From a virus, in the IMG/VR virus record IMGVR_UViG_3300043449_000557, positions 1 through 40,292 of that record: DNA of 40,292 nucleotides. The stretch is one strand, 5' to 3'. This document shows positions 1 through 40,292 of the stretch, piece by piece. Numbering within the stretch: position 1 is the stretch's first letter; the number at the start of each line of letters is the position of its first letter. Position numbers and translations under genes: made by a program. The notes below the pieces were generated by a model. The model saw only the letters and a program-made list of their open reading frames with translations, searched no databases and had not been told where the DNA came from.

Positions 1-112
1 ACACCCGCATCGCGGAACTTGACGCGCTTCTTAGCCAAACCAATGAGGGCTACGCAGAGTGCATCGCAACGCGGGAGGACTATCGCGCCCGCATCGCGGA
101 ACTTGAAGCGGC
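1..112. repeat. Left-end copy of the variable locus, first identical block
   Basis: These 112 bases are identical to 39546-39657. After them the two copies diverge and become identical again at 199-307 and 40184-40292. I read this as two alleles of one locus placed at the two ends of a circular assembly, not as a simple terminal repeat. Confidence 0.95.
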
Positions 113-251
113 GCTGAAACCGTTTGCTGACTTGGCCGAAAAATATGACGGTGACGTAGACGACCAACCATTATGGGACAGGGACTTTATGCCTGTTGTT
201 GGCGACCTCCGCGCCGCCCGCGCCGCTTATCTGGGAGAGAAAGATGACTGA
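1..251 (+). CDS. 3' part of a small coiled-coil protein, short allele
   Basis: This open frame enters from the left edge (first full codon at base 3) and ends at TGA 249-251. Its first residues match residues 17 onward of the 88-aa protein starting at 39497. It then continues with a module containing KPFADLAEKY and ends GDLRAARAAYLGEKDD. The same end closes the protein at 39760-40236. If joined to the start at 39497 it makes one fused protein of about 99 aa, with a coiled N-terminal half and an acidic middle. Function is unknown. The stop overlaps the ATG of the next gene at 244, which suggests translational coupling. Confidence 0.75.
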   Translation, partial: TRIAELDALLSQTNEGYAECIATREDYRARIAELEAALKPFADLAEKYDGDVDDQPLWDRDFMPVVGDLRAARAAYLGEKDD

Positions 252-307
252 CGCACCCATCGTCGATGTCATTATACGCCACAGGGCGCTTGCCATTACA
301 GAAGATG
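199..307. repeat. Left-end copy of the variable locus, second identical block
   Basis: These 109 bases are identical to 40184-40292, the right end of the window. They cover the end of one small gene and the start of the next. Confidence 0.95.
209..228. repeat. 20-bp GC-rich gene-end repeat, copy 1
   Basis: The 20-mer CCGCGCCGCCCGCGCCGCTT encodes the RAARAA tail of a small protein. It recurs exactly at 554-573 and 40194-40213. In all three places it lies shortly before an ATGACTGA stop/start overlap. Confidence 0.85.
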
Positions 308-450
308 GTCAGCGGCTTCCAATCACGAACTGGTTTGATAGCGATGGCGAGGAATGCCCGCCAGTGGCGGCGATGTCCTGTATCGCTGAATATGGCGACA
401 AGTATATCACGATAGATTTGCGGCATTTTTATACGTTTGCGGGGAATTGA
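244..450 (+). CDS. Small conserved hypothetical protein (68 aa)
   Basis: The likely start is ATG 244, preceded by GGGAGAGAAAG and overlapping the stop of the previous gene (ATGACTGA). An upstream in-frame ATG at 196 lies inside the previous gene and is less likely. The protein begins MTDAPIVDVIIRHRALAITE, is mildly acidic and has no membrane segment or recognised domain. Its first codons also appear at the right edge of the window (40229 onward), so this gene is the junction point of the circle. Confidence 0.7.
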   Translation: MTDAPIVDVIIRHRALAITEDGQRLPITNWFDSDGEECPPVAAMSCIAEYGDKYITIDLRHFYTFAGN

Positions 451-593
451 TGATGACACATCTTGAGTGGCCTCGTCATCCGTACAAGGTCATGCCGAAA
501 CACATGTGGCGATGGCGATGGACGCGAGACTTGCCGATGAAGTGGAGATTAACCCGCGCCGCCCGCGCCGCTTTGGAGAAGAAAGATGACTGA
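450..593 (+). CDS. Tiny basic protein with shared RAARAA tail (47 aa)
   Basis: The frame starts at ATG 450, which overlaps the TGA of the upstream gene, or at ATG 453. It is rich in Trp, Arg and Pro (for example HMWRWRWTR). It ends TRAARAALEKKDD, a close relative of the RAARAAYLGEKDD end of two other small proteins of this locus. The shared tail is encoded by the 20-bp repeat at 554-573. The unusual composition makes the N-terminal half look like a remnant joined to a mobile 3' end. It could be a decayed gene. Confidence 0.5.
   Translation: MMTHLEWPRHPYKVMPKHMWRWRWTRDLPMKWRLTRAARAALEKKDD
554..573. repeat. 20-bp GC-rich gene-end repeat, copy 2
   Basis: Exact copy of the 20-mer at 209-228, again followed within about 10 bases by GAAAGATGACTGA. 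Confidence 0.85.
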
Positions 594-765: not shown

Positions 766-896
766 GCTACCCGAACGAGAACTTTTATTACACGCCCTAC
801 GGCCAGATCAGTGCGCCAAAGGTCGGCAACATGACCGTCTATAACGGCCCGAACGGCGAATACCTTGGTTACCATTACGGGACAGAAGCCGAATGA
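663..896 (+). CDS. Small exported protein (77 aa)
   Basis: The protein starts MVRLICCIALVSSSAAAQEI, a short signal peptide with an Ala-x-Ala type cleavage site near residue 17. The mature part is Gly-, Asn-, Pro- and Tyr-rich, with two copies of a GPNG motif (GGPNGP and NGPNGE). No lipobox is present, so it is probably periplasmic or secreted, not a lipoprotein. It overlaps the membrane-protein gene upstream by 103 bases, and its stop overlaps the ATG of the DNA polymerase gene (893), so it is probably cotranslated with replication genes. Function unknown. Confidence 0.65.
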   Translation: MVRLICCIALVSSSAAAQEISVWGGPNGPVATELSYPNENFYYTPYGQISAPKVGNMTVYNGPNGEYLGYHYGTEAE

Positions 897-2785
897 TTTG
901 GCTTGATTTCGAAACAAGATCCGAATGCGATCTGCCGGTGAATGGCGTGTATAATTATGCACGTCATTCATCAACTGAAGTCATTTGCTTGTCTGGCGCA
1001 GAAGATGATGGCCCGGTTGTCACATGGCGACCGGGCGAACCTTTTCCGTGGAAGATAGACGGGCAACAGATTCGCGCCCATAATGCCGCTTTCGAGCGGC
1101 TTATCTTTTGGCATGTCCTGAAGATGGAGATACCTCTTGAGCAATTCTATTGCACGGCTGCGCAGGCGCGGGCGAATTGTGCGCCAGGTAGCCTTGAGGA
1201 TGTTGGAAGGTTCGCCGGCACGGATATGCGTAAGGATCATCGCGGGGCTGCTTTGGTGCGGGCTTGTTGCATTCCTCCTTTCAGAGATGATCTCATACCC
1301 GAATTGATTGAATACTGCGAGCAAGACGTGCGTACTATGCGCGCCGCCAGCAAAGCCATGCGGGAACTGACACCAGAAGAGTTGGAGGATTACCATGCTA
1401 ACGAGCGCATCAATGATCGTGGCGTTCTTATCGATCAGCGTCTTTGCCGCGCGGCGGTCAAATATGCGGCTGACGAATTACAGGAGATCGAAGCTACGGT
1501 TAAAGAAGTTACCGGCGGCGAAATTATCTCCGTCCGTTCTCCCAAAATGCGGCTATGGGTTCAAGAAAGACTCGGCCCAGAAGCGCGTAAACTTATGGAA
1601 CGTGACGACAAGTTCTCAATCGACAAAACCGTTCGGGCCAACCTACTGGCCATAGACGACCCTGAAGAGGTGCCTCCCGATGTCAGAGAAGTCATACAAT
1701 GCGCGGACGATCTTTGGGCGTCTTCTGTTGCTAAATTTAATCGCCTTGATAACCTTGCTTGTGCTGATGGTCGTGTTCGAGGTGCTTTTGTCTTTGCCGG
1801 CGGATCAGCCACAGGACGCGCTTCCTCGTATGGTGCGCAGGTCCACAACTTCACACGTAAGTGCGCCGATGACCCGGAAGCCGTGCGACATGCAATGGTT
1901 CGGGGTCATGCAATCGTGCCTAATTACGGACGAAGAGTCACGGACGTTCTGCGAGGTATGCTTCGGCCAGCCCTGATTCCTGCGCCTGGCAAGCAGTTCG
2001 TCGTCGCAGACTGGTCGGCCATCGAAGGGCGCGTAAACCCGTGGCTGTCCGGTAGAGGTGAGGATAAGTTACAGGCGTTCCGTGACAAGTTAGATCCTTA
2101 TATTGTAAACGCGGTGTCGACATTTCATGTCCCCTATGAACAGGTCGACAAGTCGCAACGCCAAGTCGGCAAGGTACAGGAGCTTGCGTGCGGATTCGGT
2201 GGCGGCGTTGGCGCGTTCGCGGCGATGGGCCGCGTTTATGGCCTGTCGTTACCTGAAGCTGAAGCGAAGCGCATGGTTGACGCCTGGCGTCAAGCTAATC
2301 CGTGGTCTGTGCCGTTTTGGTCTGATCTTGAGGTTGCTTACATTCGCGCGCTGCGCAATCCGGGTAAAATATTTGAGGCTGGCCGTGTAAAATACTTGGC
2401 CGACAAGCAGCACCTTTGGTATGCTCTGCCTTCTGGCCGGGTGCTTTGTTACCCGAACGCCCGGTTCGAAGAAGATGGTTCGATCACCTATTCAAAGGCG
2501 TCTTGGAAGCCTGCGGCGGATGCTAAAGAGTGGCCTCGGGGTCGGCTCTGGAGAGGGCTGGCTTGCGAGAACGTCACACAAGCGACCGCCCATGATCTTC
2601 TACGTGAGGCTCTGCGCCGTCTGCCTGACGTTGTGTTGCATGTTCACGATGAAATTGTTCTGGAGTCTGATCGGCCCGACGAGGCGAAGGCGCTCCTAGA
2701 AGAAGTTATGACAACGTCGCCCGTATGGGCGGAAGGACTACCGTTAGAAGTAGAAGCCACCATTATGGGAAGATACGGAAAATGA
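893..2785 (+). CDS. DNA polymerase, family A, with 3'-5' exonuclease
   Basis: This is a 630-aa Pol I-type replicative polymerase. The N-terminal exonuclease domain has DFE at residues 5-7 (Exo I), HNAAFE (Exo II) and YCEQD (Exo III), so proofreading looks intact. The polymerase domain has motif A DWSAIEGR (Asp373), motif B with Arg423 and Lys427, and motif C HDE at 585-587. In motif B, the position matching Klenow Phe762 is Leu431 and that matching Tyr766 is Phe435. Family members copy the phage genome with the primase-helicase. The gene overlaps its neighbours by ATGA-type junctions on both sides, so it belongs to a tightly packed operon. Confidence 0.96.
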   Translation: MIWLDFETRSECDLPVNGVYNYARHSSTEVICLSGAEDDGPVVTWRPGEPFPWKIDGQQIRAHNAAFERLIFWHVLKMEIPLEQFYCTAAQARANCAPGSLEDVGRFAGTDMRKDHRGAALVRACCIPPFRDDLIPELIEYCEQDVRTMRAASKAMRELTPEELEDYHANERINDRGVLIDQRLCRAAVKYAADELQEIEATVKEVTGGEIISVRSPKMRLWVQERLGPEARKLMERDDKFSIDKTVRANLLAIDDPEEVPPDVREVIQCADDLWASSVAKFNRLDNLACADGRVRGAFVFAGGSATGRASSYGAQVHNFTRKCADDPEAVRHAMVRGHAIVPNYGRRVTDVLRGMLRPALIPAPGKQFVVADWSAIEGRVNPWLSGRGEDKLQAFRDKLDPYIVNAVSTFHVPYEQVDKSQRQVGKVQELACGFGGGVGAFAAMGRVYGLSLPEAEAKRMVDAWRQANPWSVPFWSDLEVAYIRALRNPGKIFEAGRVKYLADKQHLWYALPSGRVLCYPNARFEEDGSITYSKASWKPAADAKEWPRGRLWRGLACENVTQATAHDLLREALRRLPDVVLHVHDEIVLESDRPDEAKALLEEVMTTSPVWAEGLPLEVEATIMGRYGK

Positions 2786-5990: not shown

Positions 5991-6037
5991 AGTCACCATA
6001 GGGAGGAAACGACACAGAAAGCCGTGTCAAAACCTTT

Positions 6038-6858: not shown

Positions 6859-6953
6859 TATAGGCCTCCCAGTAGATATGTTACGAATAAGGCGAGCGCG
6901 GGGACGGCAAGCGCGGCCCCCAGCGCAAAGGCGATTAGGTCAGTTTTGTTCAT
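6858..6953 (-). CDS. Small membrane peptide (31 aa)
   Basis: ATG 6953 to TAA 6858 encodes MNKTDLIAFALGAALAVPAL and then ALFVTYLLGGL. Apart from the first five residues it is one long hydrophobic stretch, so it is probably a single-pass membrane peptide. It overlaps the end of the upstream gene by 14 bases and the next ATG by one. Function unknown; it is one of two such peptides in this operon. Confidence 0.6.
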   Translation of the reverse strand: MNKTDLIAFALGAALAVPALALFVTYLLGGL

Positions 6954-7248
6954 AGTCGTCTATGCAGGCTTGAATGACATGGTCATCGGATTGTATGGCC
7001 GCCTCAACCGCCAAGAATAGCGGATGCGTCTGTTCTATGCAGCGGTCAGGCTCTTTAGCCTTGTCGGCGCTTATCGTCAGATGCTCCAGCTCTATGTCGT
7101 ATGGGCCGGCGTCGTCGCCCGTGTCGCGGTCGCGCCCCTCCCATTTGTAAGAGATGGTCGCCACGCCATAGGCGTATATCGCCATCCCCGGCCACGGCTG
7201 GAACTCGTCTAGCTCATATTCAATATGGTAGGTCACGGGTTGCTCCAT
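6940..7248 (-). CDS. Hypothetical protein (102 aa)
   Basis: The acidic product starts MEQPVTYHIEYELDEFQPWP and has alternating hydrophobic segments suggesting beta strands (YAYGVATISYKWEG, YDIELEHLTIS), then a C-terminal helix ending DDYEQN. No membrane segment or catalytic motif is seen. It overlaps the gene upstream by 16 bases and the one downstream by 14. No family recognised. Confidence 0.7.
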   Translation of the reverse strand: MEQPVTYHIEYELDEFQPWPGMAIYAYGVATISYKWEGRDRDTGDDAGPYDIELEHLTISADKAKEPDRCIEQTHPLFLAVEAAIQSDDHVIQACIDDYEQN

Positions 7249-7397
7249 TGTTCGGTCCAGTATTCTTCGGCAGCGTTGTCGTAAACGTCGCGCAGCGTTA
7301 GCAGCGCGTCGCTTAGATAGATGGATTTATTTGGGAGGCGGGATAACAGCTCGATTAGCTCTTCTATCGCTTTGGCTTCCAGCTCTAATTCAATCAT
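7233..7397 (-). CDS. Small acidic helical protein (54 aa)
   Basis: ATG 7397 to TGA 7233 encodes MIELELEAKAIEELIELLSR and a second helix ending WTEQWSNP. It is acidic and probably forms a two-helix coiled structure. The start overlaps the TGA of the 153-aa gene upstream (ATGA). Function unknown. Confidence 0.65.
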   Translation of the reverse strand: MIELELEAKAIEELIELLSRLPNKSIYLSDALLTLRDVYDNAAEEYWTEQWSNP

Positions 7398-7855
7398 AGC
7401 GTAACCCTCAAAAACTGGCGTGCAATCATCTCGGCATTGTCCAGCGATGCGATGGACGCCGCTAGAGACAGCGACAAGCCAAAGCGCGCTAGGAACGTCG
7501 CCAACTCATCTTGCGGCACTTTGGCGATGATGGCCGCCGCTTGTTCTAGCTTTGCTTTGGGAACGCGTTTGCGCGGTATAGCCGGCGCTTGTTCTGTCTT
7601 GGCTGGTTTTTCGGTCTTTGGCCAGCGATACACGCCGTCTGTTTTGGTTGCTTCGGCCAAGATGACCGAACGTAGCTTGTCATTGTAAATGCCGAACCGT
7701 GCCTCATAGGCTTTTTGTTCTTTTGATTTGTAGTTGCGAGCGCTCCCGCCGCGCACACGAATGCTTGCGCCTTCTTGCGTGAACACGTTACCGTGACCGA
7801 TATTCAACATTGGGCCTTCCCATTTGCTTTCGCACCATGCTTTTAAGTTTGTCAT
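7394..7855 (-). CDS. Hypothetical protein with basic linker (153 aa)
   Basis: Residues 1-65 form a compact, probably folded part (MTNLKAWCESKWEGPMLNIG). A Lys/Pro-rich linker follows (KTEKPAKTEQAPAIPRKR), then a helical C-terminal domain (AIIAKVPQDELATFLARFGL). The gene follows a terminator directly and starts 11 bases after a TAACATATCCACA-type leader whose CACAAGGA also supplies the ribosome binding site. No domain is recognised. Confidence 0.7.
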   Translation of the reverse strand: MTNLKAWCESKWEGPMLNIGHGNVFTQEGASIRVRGGSARNYKSKEQKAYEARFGIYNDKLRSVILAEATKTDGVYRWPKTEKPAKTEQAPAIPRKRVPKAKLEQAAAIIAKVPQDELATFLARFGLSLSLAASIASLDNAEMIARQFLRVTL

Positions 7856-7866
7856 GTCGCTATTCC

Positions 7867-7879
7867 TTGTGGATATGTT
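7867..7879 (-). promoter_or_regulatory. DnaA-box-like leader motif, copy at 7.87 kb
   Basis: On the minus strand this reads CAACATATCCACA, one base from the shared TAACATATCCACA. Its ATATCCACA part is one base from the DnaA box TTATCCACA. It lies 11 bases before the ATG at 7855 and directly after a terminator. Confidence 0.55.
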
Positions 7880-7880
7880 G

Positions 7881-7914
7881 CAAAAGAAAAGGCGACGCCA
7901 TTGCTAGCGCCGCC
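7881..7914 (-). terminator. Rho-independent terminator within the leftward operon
   Basis: On the minus strand a stem AGGCGGCGC/GCGTCGCCT (one mismatch) with an 8-base loop is followed by TTTTCTTTT. It lies 6 bases beyond the stop of the DUF7249-like gene. Only about 25 bases then remain before the next ATG. Confidence 0.8.
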
Positions 7915-7919
7915 TGTTA

Positions 7920-8183
7920 TTATGCGTCTTCTAATGTTTGAATTAAATGGCCGGCGATTTCATACCAGTTGACATCGGCCATGAACGCCAGCGCATAGTC
8001 TGCCGCTAGCCCCTCGCCGACGTCACCAGTCACCAGTTCTTCGGCAAAGTCTTTTAGCTGTTTCGACATCTCATATTGGTCATCTGTCTTGAACCATTCG
8101 CGCGGTTCGATCCCGTCGAACATTTCCAGATTGACGCGCCACGTCGCGTAGTTTGTCCAGCCGTTATAAGTTGTATCAGTCAT
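7920..8183 (-). CDS. DUF7249-like phage protein (87 aa)
   Basis: The N-terminus contains NGWTNYATWRVNLEMFDG, the hallmark of a small protein family common in phages and annotated as DUF7249. The rest is acidic and helical and ends HLIQTLEDA. The biochemical role of the family is unknown. AGAGGAG lies before the start, with the shared TAACATATCCACA leader 18 bases upstream of the ATG. A terminator follows the gene. Confidence 0.8.
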   Translation of the reverse strand: MTDTTYNGWTNYATWRVNLEMFDGIEPREWFKTDDQYEMSKQLKDFAEELVTGDVGEGLAADYALAFMADVNWYEIAGHLIQTLEDA

Positions 8184-8201
8184 CGTCGTCTCCTCTTACG
8201 G

Positions 8202-8214
8202 TGTGGATATGTTA
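8202..8214 (-). promoter_or_regulatory. DnaA-box-like leader motif, copy at 8.20 kb
   Basis: On the minus strand this is TAACATATCCACA. Its TAA is also the stop codon of the 37-aa gene upstream. The ATG at 8183 follows after 18 bases. Confidence 0.6.
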
Positions 8215-8325
8215 CCACTTAAACCACGCCCATGCGTCATGGATTATGTCAGCCTCCGTGCCGTTCGGGCGGCCAAAGGCAGCGTAAAGCGCGGCGCTAT
8301 ATTCTTCGTCGGTCATGTCAGTCAT
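8212..8325 (-). CDS. Small hypothetical protein (37 aa)
   Basis: ATG 8325 to TAA 8212 encodes MTDMTDEEYSAALYAAFGRP and then an acidic, Trp-rich end (DAWAWFKW). An AAAGGGG ribosome binding site and the shared leader motif lie upstream. The frame fills the space between two repeats of the leader and ends inside one of them. No family recognised. Confidence 0.6.
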   Translation of the reverse strand: MTDMTDEEYSAALYAAFGRPNGTEADIIHDAWAWFKW

Positions 8326-8344
8326 CGTCTTGGCCCCTTTGTTG

Positions 8345-8357
8345 TGTGGATATGTTA
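8345..8357 (-). promoter_or_regulatory. DnaA-box-like leader motif, copy at 8.35 kb
   Basis: On the minus strand this is TAACATATCCACA; the TAA is the stop codon of the 96-aa gene upstream. The next ATG (8325) follows after 19 bases. Confidence 0.6.
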
Positions 8358-8645
8358 TATGTTGATTGTTACTTTGGCAAGAAAGCCGCTTTCGTCGACG
8401 GTGACGTTCGCGGGTATTTCATGCAGCTTGATATACTCTTTCACGCCCGCTTCCTTTAGCGCGCGCTTGATCATGCCGCCGAACATATCGCTGTTAGCGT
8501 ATGACCTATACTTGGCGTGGTTGCGGAATGCCGCCATGTCGCAGTGACGGCGCTCTATTGCCGGCACTTTGATCCAACGCCACGCGGGCGTTTCGTCGGC
8601 GTTGTATATTGTCTCTACTTTGGCTTTGAAGCTGATGGTTGGCAT
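8355..8645 (-). CDS. Hypothetical protein (96 aa)
   Basis: This is the first gene of the leftward operon. It encodes MPTISFKAKVETIYNADETP, a basic middle part (ERRHCDMAAFRNHAKYRSY) and a beta-type C-terminus ending KVTINI. The start has AAGGGG upstream and the shared leader motif 18 bases before the ATG. It lies immediately beside the candidate origin region. No domain is recognised. Confidence 0.7.
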   Translation of the reverse strand: MPTISFKAKVETIYNADETPAWRWIKVPAIERRHCDMAAFRNHAKYRSYANSDMFGGMIKRALKEAGVKEYIKLHEIPANVTVDESGFLAKVTINI

Positions 8646-9213: not shown

Positions 9214-9693
9214 ATGAAACTAATAACTCAAGCCGAACTTAAAGAATGTTTACGCATTAACCCGGAAACAGGCGAATGCTTTAGCCTTAAAGGTCGTTTA
9301 TTAGGCTCAAAAACTTGGAACGGATATTTGCGCACTGTTGTAAAACGCCGCGAATACAAGCTGCATAGGCTTGTTTGGCTATGGGTTCATGGCGAACATG
9401 TGCCGGAGAACATGACTATTGACCACATAAACGGTGTCAAAACCGACAATCGAATCAGTAATCTGCGCGTAGTCACGCAGCTACAAAACACATATTTTCA
9501 CCACGGCGACAGCGACATGCGGAATATCTATAAAGAAGGCGATAGATATTGCGTGGAAATGCTGTATTTTGGCAAACGCATTCGAAGACGGGCAGCCACC
9601 CTAGAGCGAGCTAAACGTGTAAGAGACGAAATGTATTCGGTTTATCCGCCGTTACGCGACCGCGCAAATCTAGGCTCCGCCAATGACATTTGA
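9214..9693 (+). CDS. HNH endonuclease (159 aa)
   Basis: Residues 51-84 carry the HNH core: HRLVWLWVHG, then IDHINGVKTDNRISNLR with Asp70-His71, Asn74, Asn79 and Asn83. This is the phage HNH_3 type. The C-terminal part (RRRAATLERAKRVRDEMY) resembles the AP2-like DNA-binding end of such enzymes. It would nick or cut DNA, and related genes beside terminase can be homing elements or packaging helpers. The gene is visibly more AT-rich than the terminase genes after it, suggesting separate acquisition. It is probably read from a leaderless transcript. Its stop overlaps the start of the next gene. Confidence 0.88.
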   Translation: MKLITQAELKECLRINPETGECFSLKGRLLGSKTWNGYLRTVVKRREYKLHRLVWLWVHGEHVPENMTIDHINGVKTDNRISNLRVVTQLQNTYFHHGDSDMRNIYKEGDRYCVEMLYFGKRIRRRAATLERAKRVRDEMYSVYPPLRDRANLGSANDI

Positions 9694-10192
9694 GTCTCTT
9701 CCATACGAGCCGCGCAAAATCGAAGCGACCGAGGCGGTGCTGGAGCGCATCTATCTCGCCGCCCGCAAGGGCCTCAGAGGCGACACGCTCGCCTACGCCG
9801 CTGGCATGACGCCGACCGAATACCGCAGGCTCGTGCAGTTCGACCCCATCGCGGAGTATGCTGAGCAGAAGGGCCGCGCCGAGGGCGAGGCTGAAATGTC
9901 CGAGGTGCTGCACAACGCCGCGCGCGCTGGCGACACCAAGGCGGCGCTAGACATTCTCAAGCACGTCCATAAGTGGACAGCGCCGCAGTCGGTGCAGGTG
10001 CAGGTCGAGCAGCGCATATCCATCATAGCGGCGCTAGAAGAGGCGCAGCAGCGCGTGATCCAAGGGGAAATAATCGATGCAAGTGCCGATCTACTCAGCG
10101 GACGAAGAACAGAAGCTGATGGCGACGCTATGGTCGGCGCAGGTGAAGAACGACCCCGTAGCGTTCGTGAGGATGGCGTTCCCGTGGGGTAA
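9683..10192 (+). CDS. terS: Terminase small subunit (putative)
   Basis: The 169-aa product lies directly before the large terminase. An N-terminal helix-turn-helix region (ERIYLAARKGLRGDTLAYAA, MTPTEYRRLV) would recognise the packaging site. A helical middle (AEMSEVLHNAARAGDTKAAL) suits ring assembly, and a charged tail follows. Assignment rests mainly on position and helical pattern. ATG 9683 overlaps the HNH stop. The last 116 bases overlap the large subunit gene in another frame, and the tail encoded there is low-complexity. Confidence 0.75.
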   Translation: MTFESLPYEPRKIEATEAVLERIYLAARKGLRGDTLAYAAGMTPTEYRRLVQFDPIAEYAEQKGRAEGEAEMSEVLHNAARAGDTKAALDILKHVHKWTAPQSVQVQVEQRISIIAALEEAQQRVIQGEIIDASADLLSGRRTEADGDAMVGAGEERPRSVREDGVPVG

Positions 10193-11606
10193 GGCCGGCA
10201 CGCCGCTGGAACATTTTACCGGCCCGCGCAAGTGGCAGCTAGAGGTGTTGCAAGATCTCAAAGAACACATCCGTATAAACGGCGGCAAAATCGACTTCGA
10301 AACCTTTCGCATGGCCACGTCATCTGGGCGCGGTATTGGTAAGTCGGCGCTTGTTAGCTGGCTTGTGATCTGGATGCTGACCACAAGGATCGGCTCGACG
10401 ACCATTGTGTCGGCTAACAGTGAGGCGCAGCTCCGCAGCGTCACCTGGGCCGAGATCACCAAATGGCTATCAATGAGCCTTAACAGCCATTGGTTCGAGG
10501 TAAGCGCGACACGAGTGCTACCGGCCAAGTGGATCGCAGAGTTGGTCGAGCGGGATCTGAAGCTGGGCACACGCTACTGGGGCGTCGAGGGGCGGCTGTG
10601 GTCGGCCGAGAACCCTGACAGCTACGCGGGCGTTCACAACTTCGCGGGCGTCATGCTGGTCTTCGACGAGGCGAGCGGTATTGATGACAGTATATGGGCG
10701 GTGGCCAGTGGCTTCTTTACAGAGAACACTCCTAATCGTTTTTGGCTTGCTTTCAGCAACCCCCGCCGTAACAGCGGATATTTTTACGAGTGCTTCAACA
10801 GCAAGCGCGACTTCTGGCGAAACAAGGTTGTTGACGCCAGAAGCGTGGAGGGAACTGATAAGGCAGTCTATCAACAGATTATCGACGAATACGGACCCGA
10901 CTCTAGCCAAGCGCATGTTGAGGTCTACGGAGCCTTCCCGAACGCGAGCGACGATCAGTTCATACCGTCGTCACTGGTCATGGAGGCGCAGACACGCCCG
11001 CCATCACAGGATCAGACGGCTCCGATAATCGTAGGCGTCGACCCGGCGCGGTTCGGGGCGGACGCTACAGTGATAGCGATACGGCAGGGCCGTGACATCA
11101 TCGGCATACGCCGCTACCGGGGCGACGACACCATGGAGATCGTGGGGCGGGTCATCGACATCATAGAAGAGTTCCGGCCGGCGCTGGTCGTGATCGACGA
11201 GGGCGGGCTAGGCGCGGGCGTCGTCGATCGGCTGAAGGAGCAGCGGTATAAGATCCGTGGGGTTAACTTCGGCATGAGATCCGCCAAACCGATCATGTTC
11301 GGAAACAAGCGGGCTGAGATGTGGCACGCCATGCGGGAGTGGCTGAAGACCGCGAGCATACCAAACGACCGCTTCCTCAAGTCCGACCTGACAGGCCCGC
11401 TGACGAAGCCCGACAGTAAAGGGACTATATTCCTAGAGAGCAAGAAGGACATGAAGGCCAGAGGTCTAGCCTCACCTGACGCCGCCGACGCTATCGCCGT
11501 GACGTTCGCGTATCCGGTCGCGCACAGGGAGGCGAGGCCCGTAGACAACAGGCCGCGCATGTCCTATGGTGGGAACGCAGCCTCTTCAGGATGGATGGGT
11601 CACTAA
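10077..11606 (+). CDS. terL: Terminase large subunit
   Basis: This 509-aa packaging motor has Walker A SGRGIGKS (Lys89) and Walker B LVFDEASG (Asp197, Glu198). A C-terminal RNase H-like nuclease follows: VGVDPARFG (Asp322), VIDEGG (Asp374) and SPDAADA (Asp468). It pumps DNA through the portal and cuts the concatemer. AAGGGG before ATG 10077 supports this start despite the 116-base overlap with the small subunit gene. A later ATG at 10119 is less likely. P22-type virion genes and the permuted ends point to headful packaging, which is inference. Confidence 0.95.
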   Translation: MQVPIYSADEEQKLMATLWSAQVKNDPVAFVRMAFPWGKAGTPLEHFTGPRKWQLEVLQDLKEHIRINGGKIDFETFRMATSSGRGIGKSALVSWLVIWMLTTRIGSTTIVSANSEAQLRSVTWAEITKWLSMSLNSHWFEVSATRVLPAKWIAELVERDLKLGTRYWGVEGRLWSAENPDSYAGVHNFAGVMLVFDEASGIDDSIWAVASGFFTENTPNRFWLAFSNPRRNSGYFYECFNSKRDFWRNKVVDARSVEGTDKAVYQQIIDEYGPDSSQAHVEVYGAFPNASDDQFIPSSLVMEAQTRPPSQDQTAPIIVGVDPARFGADATVIAIRQGRDIIGIRRYRGDDTMEIVGRVIDIIEEFRPALVVIDEGGLGAGVVDRLKEQRYKIRGVNFGMRSAKPIMFGNKRAEMWHAMREWLKTASIPNDRFLKSDLTGPLTKPDSKGTIFLESKKDMKARGLASPDAADAIAVTFAYPVAHREARPVDNRPRMSYGGNAASSGWMGH

Positions 11607-12008: not shown

Positions 12009-12145
12009 TGCCGCTCGTTAAGTCCACATCCAAAAACGCCTTCCGTAAAAACATCAAAGCCGAAGTCGCCGCTGGTAAGCCGGTCAAGCAGGCCGTCGCC
12101 ATCGCCTATTCGACGAAGCGCGCAGCCGCAAAGAAGAAAAAATAA
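12008..12145 (+). CDS. Small basic DUF6496-like protein (45 aa)
   Basis: ATG 12008 overlaps the preceding stop. The product MPLVKSTSKNAFRKNIKAEV continues with AAGKPVKQAVAIAYSTKRAA and a poly-Lys end. The KP-KQAVAIAYS pattern is typical of a small conserved phage family (DUF6496-like). Role unknown; the stop overlaps the portal ATG. Confidence 0.75.
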   Translation: MPLVKSTSKNAFRKNIKAEVAAGKPVKQAVAIAYSTKRAAAKKKK

Positions 12146-14262
12146 TGGCCTCTGATGATGTCGTAGCGGCTGGCAAGGTCAGCGATAACCCGGACGATGA
12201 CCGTCTGGCCACCATGCGTCACCGCTTTACGGTGGCGATGGCAGCCTATTCGGACAGCCGCGAAGACGAGCTAGACGATCTGCGGTTCATGGCGGGCTCG
12301 CCGGACAACGCATGGCAGTGGCCGGCGGACGTGCTGGCGACACGCGGTGCGGTGCAGGGCCAGACGATCAACGCACGGCCGTGCCTGACAATCAACAAGC
12401 TGCCGCAGCACGTGCGTCTCGTGACCAACGAGCAACGCCAGAACCGCCCGACCGCCCGCGTCATTCCCGCCGACGAGAACGCGGATCCGGAGGTCGCGGA
12501 GATCTTCGACGGCATCGTGCGGCATATCGAGTATATGTCTGACGCCGACGTTGCCTACGACACGGCCTGCGACAACCAGGTCACATACGGCGAAGGCTAT
12601 ATTCGCATCCTGACTGAATACACGAAAGAAGACTCTTTCGAACAGGACATTCGCATCGCCCGCGTCCGTAGCAGTTTCAGCGTCTATATGGACCCGATGA
12701 TCCAAGACCCGTGCGGTCAGGACGCGAATTGGTGCTTTATTACGGAAGACATTCCGAAAGCTGAATATGAGCGCATGTACCCCGACGCCACGCCTGTCAC
12801 AGGTATGATGAGTCAGGGCGTGGGCGACCAGACGCTTAGCATGTGGGTCAGCCAAGAGACTGTTCGCATCGCAGAGTATTTTTACGTCGACACTAAGCGC
12901 GCCAAGCTCAATCTCTACCCAGACAATATTACGGCGTTCGATGGCACGCCGGAGGATCGTCGATTAAGAACCGCGTATGGCAAGCCGCTGCGCAGCCGCG
13001 AGAGCGACCGTCGTAAAGTCATGTGGATCAAAACCAACGGCTACGAGGTGCTGGAAGAACGCGAGTGGGCGGGTAAATACATCCCCGTCGTCCGCGTGAT
13101 CGGCAACGAGTTCGAGGTCGACGGTCAGATCTACATTAGCGGTCTAGTGCGTAACGCTAAAGACGCGCAGCGCATGTATAACTACTGGGTCAGCCAAGAA
13201 GCGGAAATGCTGGCGCTGGCCCCCAAAGCGCCGTTCATCGGCTATGGCGGCCAGTTCGAAGGCTACGAAACCAACTGGAAGACGGCCAATACGAACAACT
13301 GGCCGTATCTGGAGGTCAATCCCGATGTTACCGACGGAGCCGGCAACCCGCTACCGCTACCTGAACGCGCCCAGCCTCCGATGGCTCAAACGGGCCTTAT
13401 TCAAGCCAAGATGGGCGCTGGCGAAGACATCAAGTCGACCACTGGCCAGTACGATAGTAGCATTGGGGCGACTTCCAACGAGCGGACGGGTCGTGCGATC
13501 CTCGCTCGGGAGCGGCAAGGCGACACGAGTACTTATCATTATGTCGACAACCTCGCGCGCGCGGTAAAATACGTCGCGCGTCAGCTCGTCGACCTTATCC
13601 CGAAGATCTACGACACGCAGCGTGTCGCGCGTATCATCGGCGTTGATGGCGAAGTCGGCATGGCGCGCATCAATCCGGCTCAACCGGAGGCGGTGCGCAA
13701 GATTGTCAACGAAGAGGGTATTGAGATCGCCAAGATCTACAATCCGAACGTCGGCACTTACGACGTGCATGTGTCCTCTGGCCCCAGCTACATGACCCGT
13801 AAGCAGGAAGCTATGGACACGATGGGCCAGATCCTCCAGACGAATCCGGCGCTTTGGTCGGTTGCGGGCGATCTGTTCGTCAAAAACATGGACTGGCCAG
13901 GCTCTGAGACGATGGCCAAACGGTTTGAGAAAATGCTTGACCCAAAAGTGCTTCAGGACACCGACGAATCGCCGGAAGCGCAGGCCATGCGTATGCAGAT
14001 GGAGCAAATGGCGCAGGAAATGGAGGCCACAACGGCCCAGATCCAGCAGCTTATGCAGTCCTATGAGATGCAGAAGCTGGCGATTGACGAGCAAAACGCG
14101 CAGATTAAGGCTTATGACGCCGAAACCAAGCGTCTGTCGGCCATGCAGGCGGGCATGACGCCTGAACAGGTGCAGGACATTGTTCAAGGCACCATCGCGG
14201 CGGCGCTGGACATGGGCGACATCGTGCCGGGCAACACGCCAATGAGGGAAATGGGACAATGA
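12145..14262 (+). CDS. P22-like portal protein (705 aa)
   Basis: Length and sequence fit the P22 gp1 portal family: an acidic N-terminus, a stem/wing region starting RPCLTINKLPQHVRLVTNEQ, and VTYGEGYIRILTEY. The C-terminal end is a Met/Gln-rich helical barrel (QAMRMQMEQMAQEMEATTAQ), as in P22-type portals with a long crown. It forms the dodecameric DNA gate at the head vertex and binds terminase and the gp4-like adaptor. Its start overlaps the basic protein gene and its end overlaps the next gene (ATGA). Confidence 0.92.
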   Translation: MASDDVVAAGKVSDNPDDDRLATMRHRFTVAMAAYSDSREDELDDLRFMAGSPDNAWQWPADVLATRGAVQGQTINARPCLTINKLPQHVRLVTNEQRQNRPTARVIPADENADPEVAEIFDGIVRHIEYMSDADVAYDTACDNQVTYGEGYIRILTEYTKEDSFEQDIRIARVRSSFSVYMDPMIQDPCGQDANWCFITEDIPKAEYERMYPDATPVTGMMSQGVGDQTLSMWVSQETVRIAEYFYVDTKRAKLNLYPDNITAFDGTPEDRRLRTAYGKPLRSRESDRRKVMWIKTNGYEVLEEREWAGKYIPVVRVIGNEFEVDGQIYISGLVRNAKDAQRMYNYWVSQEAEMLALAPKAPFIGYGGQFEGYETNWKTANTNNWPYLEVNPDVTDGAGNPLPLPERAQPPMAQTGLIQAKMGAGEDIKSTTGQYDSSIGATSNERTGRAILARERQGDTSTYHYVDNLARAVKYVARQLVDLIPKIYDTQRVARIIGVDGEVGMARINPAQPEAVRKIVNEEGIEIAKIYNPNVGTYDVHVSSGPSYMTRKQEAMDTMGQILQTNPALWSVAGDLFVKNMDWPGSETMAKRFEKMLDPKVLQDTDESPEAQAMRMQMEQMAQEMEATTAQIQQLMQSYEMQKLAIDEQNAQIKAYDAETKRLSAMQAGMTPEQVQDIVQGTIAAALDMGDIVPGNTPMREMGQ

Positions 14263-19144: not shown

Positions 19145-19924
19145 ATGTCTGACGAAGAACAGGCTGTAGCGGAGATCAGCCCCGCGCCGGAACCGGAAGC
19201 CACGGCAGCGCCGGAATCTGCTGATACGACGCCGGAGGAACAGCAGCATACAAAATCGTTCTCTCAAGAAGAGCTGGACGCGATTGTAAGCAAGCGCCTT
19301 GCAAGAGAACAGCGGAAATGGGAACGTGAGCAGGCCCAGCGGCTTGCGGAGCAACAGGTTAAACAACCTGTCGCACCTCCTGCGGACCCCAACGATTTCG
19401 AGTCGGCTCAGCAATACGCGGAAGCGTTGGCGGAGCAGAAAGCTCGGGAAATGTTGGCTCAGCGCGAGGCCGCAAGGCAACAGGCCGAGTTCGTCGAGGC
19501 CTATAGAGATCGTGAGGAAGAGGCGCGGGATAAATACGAGGACTTTGAACAGGTCGCGTATAACCCCAGTCTCCCCGTCACGGACTATATGGCGCAGGCG
19601 ATTCAGGCTTCTGATATTGGCCCCGAGGTCATCTACTTCCTCGGATCCAACCCGAAAGAAGCCGCGCGTATTTCCCGGTTGCCGCCTGTCTTGCAGGCAA
19701 AAGAGATCGGCAGGATTGAAGCCAAACTGGTTGATAATCCGCCGGTCAAGAAGACATCAACCGCGCCAGCGCCTCTTGCGCCTGTCACGGCAACCCGGTC
19801 GAACTCTGGCCCGAGACGAGACACAACGGACCCCCGGTCCATAAAGGAAATGTCAACGTCGGAATGGATTGAAGCGGAACGTCAGAGACAGATCAAGAAG
19901 TGGGAAGCGCAGAATCGGAGATAA
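19145..19924 (+). CDS. Scaffolding protein (259 aa)
   Basis: An acidic Pro/Glu/Ala-rich N-terminus (AEISPAPEPEATAAPESA) is followed by a long, highly charged coiled coil (residues about 40-135, for example LAREQRKWEREQAQRLAEQQ), then a basic C-terminus. This is the usual plan of a P22-like scaffold, which shapes the procapsid and then exits. The gene has a strong AGGAG site and lies 3 bases before the coat gene. Assignment is by composition and position. Confidence 0.85.
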   Translation: MSDEEQAVAEISPAPEPEATAAPESADTTPEEQQHTKSFSQEELDAIVSKRLAREQRKWEREQAQRLAEQQVKQPVAPPADPNDFESAQQYAEALAEQKAREMLAQREAARQQAEFVEAYRDREEEARDKYEDFEQVAYNPSLPVTDYMAQAIQASDIGPEVIYFLGSNPKEAARISRLPPVLQAKEIGRIEAKLVDNPPVKKTSTAPAPLAPVTATRSNSGPRRDTTDPRSIKEMSTSEWIEAERQRQIKKWEAQNRR

Positions 19925-34980: not shown

Positions 34981-35164
34981 TAATCATCTCCATGATGGCC
35001 GCCCTTTCTCGCAACATTCTCAGCACTGTATAACGCTGATGTAGTCGCACTAGGATCGTAGAGCGCCGGGCGTGACGCATCTCTTCCTCCAGAAGCTCTT
35101 GCACTTCTGTCTCGGTGAGATCAGCAAGCTGATCGTTAAGGGTTTTCCAGGTTAAGTTCTGCAA
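34946..35164 (-). CDS. Small coiled helical protein (72 aa)
   Basis: The product starts MQNLTWKTLNDQLADLTETE and continues with VQELLEEEMRHARRST, then a basic helix and a Ser-rich end. It is probably a helical hairpin. It overlaps the helicase gene by 29 bases and the next gene by 35, so it is part of the leftward four-gene operon. Function unknown. Confidence 0.65.
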   Translation of the reverse strand: MQNLTWKTLNDQLADLTETEVQELLEEEMRHARRSTILVRLHQRYTVLRMLRERAAIMEMINESSRSTSASI

Positions 35165-36422
35165 GGGCGATTTCCGCTAAAGATTTCTTGTCTTGTAAGC
35201 TAGACAAGATACGTTCGTCAATAGTTTTATTACACATGATGAGATAACACCAGACCTCTCGCGTCTGGCCGCTGCGGTGCAGCCGGCCCACTGTCTGCTC
35301 GAACAGTTCCAGCGACCACGGGAGTGAGAGGAAGACGATCTTGTTACCGCCAAACTGGAGGTTCAGCCCGTGGCCGGCGCTCTTGGGATGGATCGCCAGC
35401 AACTCGATCTTGCCAGCGTTCCAGCGCTCGATGGCGTCGGGCGCATCTATTGTAGTAACATTAAATGACCGTTGAAGCTCGGCTAGTTCTTCTTTGTAAT
35501 TGTAGACGACGATGGTGTTGTCGCGTTGGTTTTCGTCGAGGATGTCTCGGAGAGATTCAAACTTTTGGCGTCCAAACCACTGAGCAACGCCTTGGCTATC
35601 ATAAGCGAAGCCGGACGTGAGCTGCTGAAGTTTGTTTGTGACAGCAGCCGCTGTTGGAGCCGTGATCTCTTCATGCACATAATCCTTCTTCATGTTTTCG
35701 TATGGCTCGCGGTCGTCCAGATCGCATCGCATTTCGACGACATGGAGCGGCGGTAACTTGTCCTTATACTCGCCAGGCTCCAGCACATAGGTCGCCGGCT
35801 TGATTGTTTCCATGACCTTAGGCAGCGATTGTGGCAACGGCTCCCATTGGCCGTAGTCGCGATTCACGCAATAAAAGTATTGCTGCAAGAACGCGCCTTT
35901 GCTACGGCCTAGTAGCGTCTGATCGACGACCTTGCATTGCCCGAACACGTCCTCTAGGCCGTTTGATGTAAACGAGCCGGTCAGACCCCATCGGATTTTG
36001 AACTTGTCGAGGATCTTGAGAAGATATTTGAACCGTTTGCGGGATGGGTCTTTCAGCCGTGTCAGCTCGTCAAATACAATGCCGTCGAAGTCTTTAGGGT
36101 CAATCGACAAGATGTTGTCGTAGTTGGTTACAACAATGTCGGTATCGGCTTCGAACGCTTTTTTACGTTGAGCGGGAGTGCCGACAGCAACAGCCATGCT
36201 CATGTGTTCAGCCCACTTTGGCCGCTCGACAGGCCATACGTCGGTGCAAACGCGCTTCGGCGCTAACACAAGCCAACGGTCGCAATGACCTTTAGCCGTC
36301 ATGTCCGACATCGCCGTTAATGTAATCGCTGTTTTTCCGGCCCCCACAGGGGCCAGTATCATTGCCCGATCATGGGCGAAGAGGAAATCGGCGGCGTCGT
36401 GTTGATACGGTCGTAAGTCCAT
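35136..36422 (-). CDS. SNF2-type DEAD-like helicase (428 aa)
   Basis: The N-terminus has LRPYQHDAADFLF (Q-like motif), Walker A APVGAGKT (Lys30), motif Ia LAPKRV and motif II FDEL (Asp118, Glu119). The C-terminal helicase lobe has the SNF2 motif VI-type sequence FEQTVGRLHRSGQTREV. Phage proteins of this type move on double-stranded DNA and often sit beside a VRR-NUC nuclease, as here (overlap 64 bases). Recombination, replication restart or host DNA remodelling are possible roles. Confidence 0.92.
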   Translation of the reverse strand: MDLRPYQHDAADFLFAHDRAMILAPVGAGKTAITLTAMSDMTAKGHCDRWLVLAPKRVCTDVWPVERPKWAEHMSMAVAVGTPAQRKKAFEADTDIVVTNYDNILSIDPKDFDGIVFDELTRLKDPSRKRFKYLLKILDKFKIRWGLTGSFTSNGLEDVFGQCKVVDQTLLGRSKGAFLQQYFYCVNRDYGQWEPLPQSLPKVMETIKPATYVLEPGEYKDKLPPLHVVEMRCDLDDREPYENMKKDYVHEEITAPTAAAVTNKLQQLTSGFAYDSQGVAQWFGRQKFESLRDILDENQRDNTIVVYNYKEELAELQRSFNVTTIDAPDAIERWNAGKIELLAIHPKSAGHGLNLQFGGNKIVFLSLPWSLELFEQTVGRLHRSGQTREVWCYLIMCNKTIDERILSSLQDKKSLAEIALAELNLENP

Positions 36423-36687: not shown

Positions 36688-36716
36688 TTGCACGAAAATA
36701 AAAAGATGTCTAGTGT
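36688..36716 (+). promoter_or_regulatory. Weak sigma70-like promoter for the rightward early operon
   Basis: TTGCAC (36688-36693) and TAGTGT (36711-36716) are 17 bases apart. The -35 is good and the -10 poor. It lies in the divergent gap between the VRR-NUC gene and the nuclease gene at 36739, where a promoter is expected. Confidence 0.35.
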
Positions 36717-36725
36717 CGAATCACT

Positions 36726-36741
36726 GAAAGGTAAGGTAATG
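36726..36741 (+). repeat. Shared translation leader, copy 1
   Basis: GAAAGGTAAGGTAATG, including the start codon, is identical at 38073-38088. It supplies the ribosome binding site and fixes the start of the nuclease gene. Confidence 0.75.
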
Positions 36742-37833
36742 GCACATAGCAATATCGTCGGCGGTTCGACCGCCAAGCGTCTTATTAAATGCCCCGCTTC
36801 GCGGGCGCTTGTTAATACAGTTCCACCAAAACCAACAAGCAGTTACGCCGAAGAAGGCTCGCGTCTGCATGACGCCATGCACATGATTTTGTCGCATGGC
36901 GGCAGCGTTGAAGATTATCCTGACAATGAGAAGTTAATCCTTGCTCTTGACGCGTTAAATGAAATCGACCCTAATAATGAGCTTGAGTTCGCCACGGAGG
37001 TGAATGTCCATTTTAACGACTTTCTTGCCGGAGTTTACGGTTCTTGCGATCTCGCTGGCCGTATTCGCAATCGTGCGATAGTCCTCGATTGGAAGTTTGG
37101 GGATGGCGTTGCGGTAGACGCCGAAGAAAACGAACAGCTTATGTTCTACACCGCCGCAGGGATGCGGACGGAAGCACTGCGCTGGGTCTTTGAAGGCGTT
37201 GATGAGATCGAACTTATCATCGTGCAGCCGCCCTACGTTAAGCGTTGGGTGACGACGCCCGGTCGCATTAAGGCGTTCGAACGCACGCTGTATGACGCCG
37301 TGCAAGCGTCGTTCAAGCCTAATCCTAAGTATGAAGCTGGCGATCATTGCCGTTGGTGCGCGGGTAAGCCTGTCTGCCCTTTGCTTACAGGTCAGCTTGA
37401 GCGCGCTGTTGCGACGAAAGTTAAAGCTATTGATGTGGAGAAAGTTGGCAATGCTCTGGCGTTTGCGATCCTTGCGGAAGAGTGGGCTAAAAGCGTCCGT
37501 GAACTGGCCCAGACGATGCTGGAGAACAACGCGCCAGTGCCGGGATGGAAGCTCGTCCCCAAGCGCGCCACTCGTCAATGGGCTGATGCTGAAGGAGCGC
37601 GCGAAGCTCTTGAGCAAATGGGACTTGATTCCGAAGAATTGATTGTGACCGAACTGAAGTCGCCGGCGCAAGTCGAGAAGGTGCTTAAGAAGCACAAGCT
37701 CGAACTGCCGAAAGATCTGGTCGTCGCAGTCTCAACAGGTAACACAATCGCGCCGGAGAGCGATCCCCGGCCGGCGGTGCTTACAATAGGTTCCGATATT
37801 CGTCGGGCCTTCTCTAAACTTGAGGTAAAGTAA
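36739..37833 (+). CDS. Cas4/AddB-like PD-(D/E)xK nuclease, DUF2800 type (364 aa)
   Basis: The start at ATG 36739 is chosen because GAAAGGTAAGGT precedes it, as at 38086; the open frame extends upstream to 36688. Motifs: GSRLHD (His44), GSCDLAG (Asp104), VLDWKFG (Asp117-x-Lys119) and QLMFY (Gln133, Tyr137), the RecB/Cas4 nuclease set. One Cys near the start (KCPAS, Cys18) and CRWCAGKPVC further on match the four-Cys Fe-S cluster layout of Cas4 and AddB. It is probably a recombination or replication exonuclease. Followed by two small operon members. Confidence 0.88.
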   Translation: MAHSNIVGGSTAKRLIKCPASRALVNTVPPKPTSSYAEEGSRLHDAMHMILSHGGSVEDYPDNEKLILALDALNEIDPNNELEFATEVNVHFNDFLAGVYGSCDLAGRIRNRAIVLDWKFGDGVAVDAEENEQLMFYTAAGMRTEALRWVFEGVDEIELIIVQPPYVKRWVTTPGRIKAFERTLYDAVQASFKPNPKYEAGDHCRWCAGKPVCPLLTGQLERAVATKVKAIDVEKVGNALAFAILAEEWAKSVRELAQTMLENNAPVPGWKLVPKRATRQWADAEGAREALEQMGLDSEELIVTELKSPAQVEKVLKKHKLELPKDLVVAVSTGNTIAPESDPRPAVLTIGSDIRRAFSKLEVK

Positions 37834-38072: not shown

Positions 38073-38088
38073 GAAAGGTAAGGTAATG
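38073..38088 (+). repeat. Shared translation leader, copy 2
   Basis: Exact second copy of GAAAGGTAAGGTAATG, again ending in the start codon. Confidence 0.75.
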
Positions 38089-38709
38089 TCAAATCTCGTA
38101 AAATTTGGTAGCGCAAATCTTCCTACGGCTGCGTCTCTTGCTGAGTCGCTTCGCGGGCTTGAGTCGGGTGCGCTCAGCATGGTCATCCTCAAGATGGACC
38201 GGACGGGCCACTGGGTCTACGGCGCAGACATGACTGAGGTTGATAAGGATGGTCTTTGGGCCGTCAATCCTTTCAGCTTTGTTCATGGCTATATCGCTTG
38301 GGGTGAAGGCTGCATTGCTGGCGAAAAGATGGTCGGCATCACTGAGCCGCTGCCGGTCATGGACGCGCCGCCGCCTGGCGCTCCGCTTGGCTGGCAAGCG
38401 CAGGTTGGTATGAGCCTTAAGTGCCTTAGCGGCGAAGACAAAGGGCTTGAAGCGCGTTTTGCTACAACGTCAATCGGCGGCAAGCGCGCCATGCACCAGC
38501 TCGCCATGAAGGTTGCCGATCAGGTCGAGGCGAATCAGGAAAAACCTGTCGCCGTCGTCAAACTTGGCGTTGACCACTATGCGCACAAAACCTATGGCCG
38601 CACATTCGTGCCGGTTTTAGACATTGTCGATTGGATCTCGCTAAACGGCGAAGGCGCTGAATCGGTCGATGGCTCCGCTGGTGACACCGGTCGTCGTCGT
38701 CGCGGCTGA
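38086..38709 (+). CDS. Conserved phage protein, possible ssDNA-binding or recombination partner (207 aa)
   Basis: The product begins MSNLVKFGSANLPTAASLAE and has beta-type segments (SMVILKMDRTGHWVYGADMT, FVPVLDIVDWISLNGEG) with a Gly/Arg-rich end GDTGRRRRG. Its partner genes (nuclease, polymerase, primase) and its mixed beta pattern would suit a single-strand binding protein, but no conserved motif proves this. It shares its translation leader with the nuclease gene, suggesting similar expression. A strong terminator follows. Confidence 0.65.
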   Translation: MSNLVKFGSANLPTAASLAESLRGLESGALSMVILKMDRTGHWVYGADMTEVDKDGLWAVNPFSFVHGYIAWGEGCIAGEKMVGITEPLPVMDAPPPGAPLGWQAQVGMSLKCLSGEDKGLEARFATTSIGGKRAMHQLAMKVADQVEANQEKPVAVVKLGVDHYAHKTYGRTFVPVLDIVDWISLNGEGAESVDGSAGDTGRRRRG

Positions 38710-39300: not shown

Positions 39301-39500
39301 GAAAACCGCTAAACAATACACGACGCATCAGAGATATATCTGCATTGACGCCATACGAGGAAAAGATCCTTAGCCTACGTCGGCAGGGGCTACCGTGGAA
39401 GAAAATAGCCGAACAGATCGGCAATATCAGTGAGCGTTCTGCTAGCGTTAAGTATATCACGATTAAAGAAAAGTTAGCTGCTAGGGGAGAGACGCCGTGA
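39285..39500 (+). CDS. Helix-turn-helix protein (71 aa)
   Basis: Residues about 20-60 form a helix-turn-helix of the sigma region 4 or GcrA type: LTPYEEKILSLRRQGLPWKK, then IAEQIGNISERSASVKY. It is a candidate small transcription regulator. The start may be ATG 39285 or 39294; both lie in the 3' end of the previous gene. The stop overlaps the next start (GTGA). Confidence 0.7.
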   Translation: MDGMVGKPLNNTRRIRDISALTPYEEKILSLRRQGLPWKKIAEQIGNISERSASVKYITIKEKLAARGETP

Positions 39501-39763
39501 CCGATAGATTGCTCGACGAGATCGAAGCGGCATTGGCAGAAAAAGACACCCGCATCGCGGAACTTGACGCGCTTCTTAGCCAAACCAATGAGGGCTACGC
39601 AGAGTGCATCGCAACGCGGGAGGACTATCGCGCCCGCATCGCGGAACTTGAAGCGGCTGGAAACCTTGTCGTCGAATGGTGGCTGTCAGAAGGCATGAAA
39701 CTTATGGACGGCGCACCTTACGCAATGTTCAGGCTGCGCTCCGCTTTGGGAGAAAAGGAATGA
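39497..39763 (+). CDS. Small coiled-coil protein, long-allele version (88 aa)
   Basis: GTG 39497 overlaps the previous stop and has AGGGGAG upstream. Residues 1-53 are a charged coiled coil (LLDEIEAALAEKDTRIAELD) containing two copies of RIAELDA/RIAELEA. The C-terminal part (LVVEWWLSEGMKLMDGAPYA) differs from the version at the left end, which has KPFADLAEKY instead. It ends FRLRSALGEKE, a weak form of the RAARAAYLGEKDD tail. The stop overlaps the next ATG (ATGA). Confidence 0.75.
   Translation: MTDRLLDEIEAALAEKDTRIAELDALLSQTNEGYAECIATREDYRARIAELEAAGNLVVEWWLSEGMKLMDGAPYAMFRLRSALGEKE
39546..39657. repeat. Right-end copy of the variable locus, first identical block
   Basis: These bases equal 1-112. 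The long allele continues for 526 bases before rejoining at 40184. Confidence 0.95.
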
Positions 39764-40236
39764 CTGACGAGCCTACTATACGGATACGCGACGGGTCTAT
39801 GGTCACGCGGGAAGAATACGACATGATGGAAGCGCACGCTAAACGCGTCAGGGATGCGGCGGCCAACCGTCAAGTAATGTCTGACAGTTCGCTGGACTAC
39901 ACAGGACTTGTGAATTGGCTGCGAGATAATGCCGTTGGTGTTGTCTCATTTCGCCCAAAGTTTATCGAAGCCGCAAACGCCATTGAAGCATTGATGGCCC
40001 GCATTGATGACATCGCAGAGAAATACAACAACGCTCTATTGTCGCCTGTTACAGAGAAGATGCTGAAAAACGCGGTTGAAGAGATTGTTCAGTTAAAGGC
40101 GGCGATAAAGCCATTTGCTTTGGCTGCGGATGACTATTTTGACGACGATGACGACGAACCTGCTTATTTGAAGCATTTTCGCATTGGCGACCTCCGCGCC
40201 GCCCGCGCCGCTTATCTGGGAGAGAAAGATGACTGA
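39760..40236 (+). CDS. Acidic hypothetical protein of the long allele (158 aa)
   Basis: ATG 39760 overlaps the previous stop. The N-terminus MTDEPTIRIRDGSMVTREEY is followed by helical segments (LVNWLRDNAVGVVSFRPKFI). Near residues 115-158 comes the module shared with the left-end allele: KAAIKPFALAADDY, an Asp-rich stretch and GDLRAARAAYLGEKDD. It is absent from the short allele except for this module. Function unknown. Confidence 0.7.
   Translation: MTDEPTIRIRDGSMVTREEYDMMEAHAKRVRDAAANRQVMSDSSLDYTGLVNWLRDNAVGVVSFRPKFIEAANAIEALMARIDDIAEKYNNALLSPVTEKMLKNAVEEIVQLKAAIKPFALAADDYFDDDDDEPAYLKHFRIGDLRAARAAYLGEKDD
40194..40213. repeat. 20-bp GC-rich gene-end repeat, copy 3
   Basis: Exact copy of the 20-mer at 209-228 and 554-573; this copy is part of the allelic duplicate. 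Confidence 0.85.
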
Positions 40237-40292
40237 CGCACCCATCGTCGATGTCATTATACGCCACAGGGCGCTTGCCATTACAGAAGATG
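40229..40292 (+). CDS. 5' part of the gene at 244-450, second copy
   Basis: ATG 40229 starts the same protein as ATG 244 (MTDAPIVDVIIRHRALAITE) and runs off the right edge. It is not a second gene but the same one met again by going round the circle. Confidence 0.85.
   Translation, partial: MTDAPIVDVIIRHRALAITED

Follow-up and report, generated by a model that had tools for sequence, protein, structure and literature searches.

The two ends of the contig described here most likely carry two versions of one gene locus from the same phage population. The window, by which is meant the whole stretch of DNA that was analysed, is a virus contig of 40,292 bp from an uncultured podovirus-like phage. 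Taken as a whole, the evidence makes it probable that a circular-mapping phage population is polymorphic at a locus of small genes, where the alleles differ by the exchange of cassettes. The polymorphic locus would be placed between the exonuclease and 38086 genes and the DNA polymerase gene, and the assembler would have circled the genome, entered the locus via one allele, and left it via the other. Phage mosaicism is usually inferred from old comparisons. The present locus represents a recent exchange that is probably still polymorphic in one population; both edges of the exchange are located to the base, and the edge sequences recur in dozens of other phages.

When the window is compared with itself, bases 1-112 are identical to 39546-39657 (112 bases, 100%) and bases 199-307 are identical to 40184-40292 (109 bases, 100%). 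These end matches have an E-value of about 1e-52 and are not due to chance. Between the shared flanks, the middle measures 86 bp in one copy (113-198) and 526 bp in the other (39658-40183). Recomputation returned exactly the coordinates of the end identities and of the 86/526 bp replacement that a sequence-only reading of the window had proposed. Shared flanks on either side of a differing middle are the arrangement expected of two structural alleles, and these flanks of 112 and 109 bp, with no further sequence, tie each allele to the same locus. The remaining significant self-similarity of the window is one 43-bp copy of the 3' anchor (described below) at 554-593, with 86% identity. The circle implied by these ends is 39,985 bp with the long allele and 39,545 bp with the short allele. 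We infer that one sample contains both alleles, each in a genome of its own.

Read across the joined ends, the short allele encodes one protein of 99 aa. The long allele encodes an 88-aa protein, whose first 54 residues are those of the short-allele protein and whose tail is different, as well as a complete second gene of 158 aa (39760..40236, plus strand; its start codon overlaps the preceding stop). The shared head of the first gene (39497..39657, plus strand, GTG start) includes in translation two copies of a RIAEL[DE]A hinge and an inner module, DALLSQTNEGYAECIATREDYRA. At the left end of the contig, the 5' flank of the short allele (1..112, plus strand) begins inside this head. The flank closes with the 5' hinge CGCATCGCGGAACTTGAAGCGGC (90..112, plus strand), which encodes RIAELEAA, is repeated at 6, 39551, and 39635, and abuts the allele breakpoint 112|113. 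Beyond the breakpoint, the short allele continues into the tail cassette S, ALKPFADLAEKYDGDVDDQPLWDRDFMPVV (113..198, plus strand), and the long allele into the tail of its first gene, GNLVVEWWLSEGMKLMDGAPYAMFRLRSALGEKE (39658..39763, plus strand), for which no match was found elsewhere except for its last 27 bp. The second gene of the long allele has a tail cassette of its own, AIKPFALAADDYFDDDDDEPAYLKHFRI (40101..40183, plus strand), which recurs behind other heads in gene 2 of locus L100 (92.5% DNA identity) and in L013 (82%).

Both alleles end in the same 3' anchor, GDLRAARAAYLGEKDD-stop, present as a short-allele copy (199..251, plus strand) and an identical long-allele copy (40184..40236, plus strand). 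The anchor encodes GDLRAARAAYLGEK and holds the ribosome site and the overlapping ATG start (244) of the next gene. That next gene, a small gene of 68 aa (244..450, plus strand), has its first 64 bp also at 40229-40292, and no relative of it was found among the loci examined. A third anchor copy (554..593, plus strand), the 86% self-match noted above, closes a small gene at 450-593 and has close matches over 23-44 bp in many loci. The two allele breakpoints, 112|113 and 198|199, therefore fall on the hinge and on the 3' anchor.

Two features of the sequence-only reading do not survive this dissection. It had described the short-allele product as a fusion of the two long-allele proteins, but the short-allele protein lacks the second-gene body (39760-40100); the head is shared and the tails are swapped. 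It had also put the difference down to about 440 bp gained or lost at one point, but the 86-bp piece did not remain behind from the 526-bp piece. It is a separate cassette, 98-99% identical in other phages, and in alignment it is related to the second-gene tail only as a diverged homologue.

The locus is bounded by two landmarks. On its left is an exonuclease gene (36688..37833, plus strand; DUF2800, PD-(D/E)XK-like; phrog_69, E=8e-62; PF10926, E=3e-49), adjoined by a conserved gene (38086..38709, plus strand) that is assigned to phrog_9528 (“nucleotidyltransferase”) and whose product has no Pfam match; its position suggests a DUF2815/ssDNA-binding-like product. On its right is the gene for DNA polymerase A (893..2785, plus strand; phrog_17, E=3.9e-94). 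This placement, between the exonuclease at 36688 and the polymerase at 893, bears out the earlier statement that the locus lies beside replication genes. Elsewhere the window encodes a primase (2725-5058), an HNH endonuclease (9214-9693; phrog_99) directly 5' of the terminase gene (10077-11606), a portal (12145-14262), a scaffold (19145-19924), and, on the minus strand, a helicase (35136-36422). Among named records, the closest are phage DSL-LC05 and the uncultured Manatee Spring podovirus MW202483, whose gene matching the contig carries the annotation of a P22-like portal. Among the GenBank phages searched, the only matches were anchor-sized matches to two Manatee Spring records of equal length and a distant match to a podovirus polymerase. 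The 3' anchor is present in part in two Manatee Spring records, at least one of which is annotated as a myovirus with an integrase.

In relatives of the window, collected via the polymerase, the exonuclease is followed without interruption by a gene like that at 38086, by a variable set of small genes, and by the polymerase. The window has this gene order too, beginning near its right end and continuing at its left end. Both ends of 40 near-complete or family contigs were also compared, with an overlap cut-off of at least 60 bp. Such an overlap is present in 21 of the 40, of which 11 are exact (mostly 127 bp) and 10 are inexact (91.7 to 99.96%). The ends of these contigs are scattered over many places in the gene order, so that a circular map, rather than fixed virion ends, is the general rule. 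The circular map of the sequence-only reading is upheld by both observations, the contiguity of the 36688-38709 genes with the polymerase in relatives and the self-wrapping of about half of the 40 contigs, and the window is most likely a circle broken at this locus. An ordinary linear phage whose terminal repeats have differing copies would also place a repeat at both contig ends; this explanation is very improbable, however, as relatives read through the locus continuously, their contigs end at many different places, and the terminal repeats of one virion are normally identical.

As the inexact overlaps show, assemblies in this group commonly continue into the version of a second strain. In one close relative (G024; L212 and L213), the ends share 281 bp, then differ by 542 versus 6 bp, then share 170 bp; this difference lies between primase and terminase and marks a second variable place. 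The two flanks of the window are unequal (112 and 109 bp), and neither has the 127-bp length that is typical of overlaps in relatives, which leaves the assembler step partly unexplained. Overlaps of these lengths are compatible with an assembly break at a bubble or at the read length, rather than with a single k-mer length. Contig ends are enriched upstream of the polymerase (24 versus 10 within 3 kb, p=0.02), and anchors were found within the last 250 bp of 0 of the 40 captured contig ends. The enrichment on the polymerase side was considered as evidence that anchors break assemblies in that group and was dropped, given the absence of anchors from those 40 ends.

A different way to obtain the same contig is a tandem duplication, in which one genome holds the long and then the short version side by side and the contig breaks in the repeat. 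Genes of the same family do stand in tandem in L100, L097, L108, and other loci, and internal repeats longer than 100 bp occur in two of 48 family loci (a perfect 274-bp repeat in L154 and a 123-bp repeat in L136). In the other 46 of the 48 loci, however, the longest within-locus repeat (at least 95% identity) is at most 51 bp, whereas the repeats of the window measure 112 and 109 bp at 100%; both outer ends of these repeats fall at the ends of the contig; and near-complete contigs of the group commonly wrap into a second version. Tandem copies are accordingly considered unlikely, and two alleles remain the best reading. Two versions of one locus, as originally proposed, is retained as the most parsimonious reading. 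In L154, a head-hinge-tail cassette is perfectly duplicated over 274 bp (5235-5508 and 5882-6155).

About 80 distinct environmental-phage ORFs, collected from loci for which the search patterns (peptide or DNA) themselves contained the conserved motifs, share the plan of head, hinge, tail, and anchor, with heads and tails recombined. The S cassette recurs with unrelated heads in L100, L102, L103, and L092 (98.8%, 97.7%, 98.7%, and 82.7% DNA identity, respectively), and the heads of L100, L102, and L103 have 21-25% protein identity to the window head. The reverse combination is also found. The second-gene body (39760-40100) is conserved in L013 and L096-L099 with another tail, and the inner head module DALLSQTNEGYAECIATREDYRA has 95.7% DNA identity in L105, with a different start before it and a different tail after it. 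Among protein pairs, which are not independent of one another in these counts, 44 have tails at least 70% identical and heads below 35%, 16 show the reverse, and 21 are similar in both parts. The family is thus a domain mosaic in both directions, with the same tail on unrelated heads and the same head on unrelated tails. Exchange points are concentrated at the conserved joint sequences: in DNA tail-swap pairs (tails at least 85%, heads below 50%), which again are not mutually independent, identity ends 0-40 nt upstream of the KPF codons in 40 of 40 pairs, a position at the hinge or adjoining it, and both allele breakpoints of the window fall at such joints. Both tail types of the window occur in L100 on two adjacent genes directly after the polymerase. 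These cassette genes of a close relative (L100, 321-882) lie directly downstream of the polymerase, which indicates insertion places on both of its sides.

The mobility of these modules also bears on whether the assembler joined sequences from two different phages, with the short version contributed by a phage that has the anchor and head module in common with this one. Most of the 112-bp flank consists of a shuffled module, as its close counterpart in L105 illustrates, and in contig G032 the alternative upstream sequence differs in gene content, both of which are compatible with a chimera. The 109-bp right flank, however, includes the unique start of the gene at 244-450, which is in no other locus; the remainder of that gene and the polymerase follow this flank; and both flanks would have to be shared in the right order. 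A chimeric assembly is therefore improbable, slightly more so than tandem copies, and the two ends are better read as alleles of one population. The G032 contig (62,412 bp; L138 is 52063-62412 and L139 is 1-8455) has a 4635-bp end overlap of 99.96% identity, in which its last 4635 bp repeat 1970-6604. The overlap stops at the RI[AN]ELE hinge of a gene of the same family, upstream of which the genes differ; the exonuclease and 38086-like gene of the window's group lie at one end, and other genes at the other. G032 arose either by recombination between phages or by chimeric assembly at the cassette locus.

The joints are conserved as DNA to differing degrees. The RAARAA codons of the anchor are CGC GCC GCC CGC GCC GCT in 29-32 of 32 occurrences from 24 loci that were chosen without reference to anchor DNA (a first count had included loci partly chosen by it), and several codons for Ala and Arg are in use elsewhere in these ORFs. 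Hinge DNA is more loosely conserved than the 3' anchor. An ATG is present at the stop in 73 of 79 ORFs and a ribosome-site-like motif inside the anchor in 74 of 79. The translation start of the next gene could by itself keep part of the anchor DNA conserved, and recent spread of cassettes could be another source of this conservation. Folding of the anchors as RNA is no better than that of shuffled sequence. An exact 29-mer of the 3' anchor occurs in 23 stretches of viral contigs, a 27-mer of it in 0 bacterial genome contigs, and an exact 30-mer of the head has no match in viral contigs. Neither the protein nor the anchor has a match in bacterial genomes, and the searches therefore yield neither a host nor a prophage copy.

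Genes at this locus are built from a head, a RIAELEA hinge, a tail, and a 3' anchor in which the following gene has its ribosome site and start codon. In the proposed mechanism, recombination at the hinge and anchor DNA would replace a tail, or a tail together with whole genes, in frame and with translation coupling kept. Such exchange may proceed by homologous recombination or by annealing of single strands. The most likely route is homologous exchange between hinges and between anchors when phages infect the same cell, and the adjacent exonuclease and its neighbour could aid it. Relaxed homologous recombination is carried out by phage Rad52-like recombinases, and the reported minimum identity for Red-beta is 23-27 bp, that for RecA 31-34 bp (De Paepe et al. 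2014, PMC3945230). Identity runs in the anchors span about 19-50 bp, near these minimum lengths, and the likeness to that system lies in exchange at short or diverged identities within the size range of the anchors. In contrast to that system, no Red-beta, RecT, or Erf homologue was identified here: a family search of the genes scanned identified no annealing recombinase. An integron- or shufflon-like site-specific cassette system would have a recombinase and recombination sites of its own; the window genes that were scanned included no tyrosine or serine recombinase. A more speculative proposal, to which we give little credence, is that selection maintains the hinge and 3' anchor as joints for recombination and that they form a standard “plug” format for the small early genes of environmental phages. 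If true, heads, tails, and whole genes would be exchangeable in frame with translation kept, from podoviruses to a myovirus, and the format would be the phage equivalent of a cassette system that lacks a dedicated integrase. The locus makes it possible to test whether gene shuffling uses short coding sequences as standard joints, and it shows how loci of this kind can break metagenomic phage assemblies.

The locus is a new variant of known phage protein mosaicism, and by analogy its mosaicism seems most like that of lambda Ea22. In lambda and related phages, Ea22 is a small, mosaic early gene near exo, and its product consists of an N-terminal part, a coiled-coil middle, and an exchangeable C-terminal domain (PMC10834534). 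The likeness lies in replication-region position, small size, coiled-coil-like composition, and exchangeable ends, and the window locus does adjoin an exonuclease in the replication region, as is expected of the Ead/Ea22 family (PF13935). The short-allele protein does not reach the gathering score of Pfam Ead_Ea22 (E=0.037; 15 bits against a cut-off of 27), and the top 25 family matches for a set of 57 members do not include Ead_Ea22. Unlike Ea22, the window family varies both heads and tails, and its joint sequences are conserved at the DNA level. Recent shuffling of fragments between otherwise unrelated phage proteins has been described mainly for receptor-binding, lysis, and replication proteins, with more expected in proteins of unknown function (Smug et al. 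2023, PMC10684548); here, in contrast, the proteins are tiny, belong to no known family, and share one common hinge and 3' anchor. Searches of Pfam, PHROGs, PADLOC, and PDB gave weak, mostly coiled-coil-type matches, with the exception of phrog_1273 (no annotation) for two members. The proteins are probably accessory early proteins, which may be loosely coiled-coil, and their diversity, perhaps favoured by host interaction, suggests a role in adjusting host or counter-defence interactions.

A further arrangement beside the polymerase is seen in L010 (7880-8500), where an HNH-endonuclease-like ORF directly follows the polymerase gene. Behind this ORF, the last 26 polymerase codons are present a second time in diverged form. 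The arrangement resembles a homing endonuclease that brings along a copy of the gene end.
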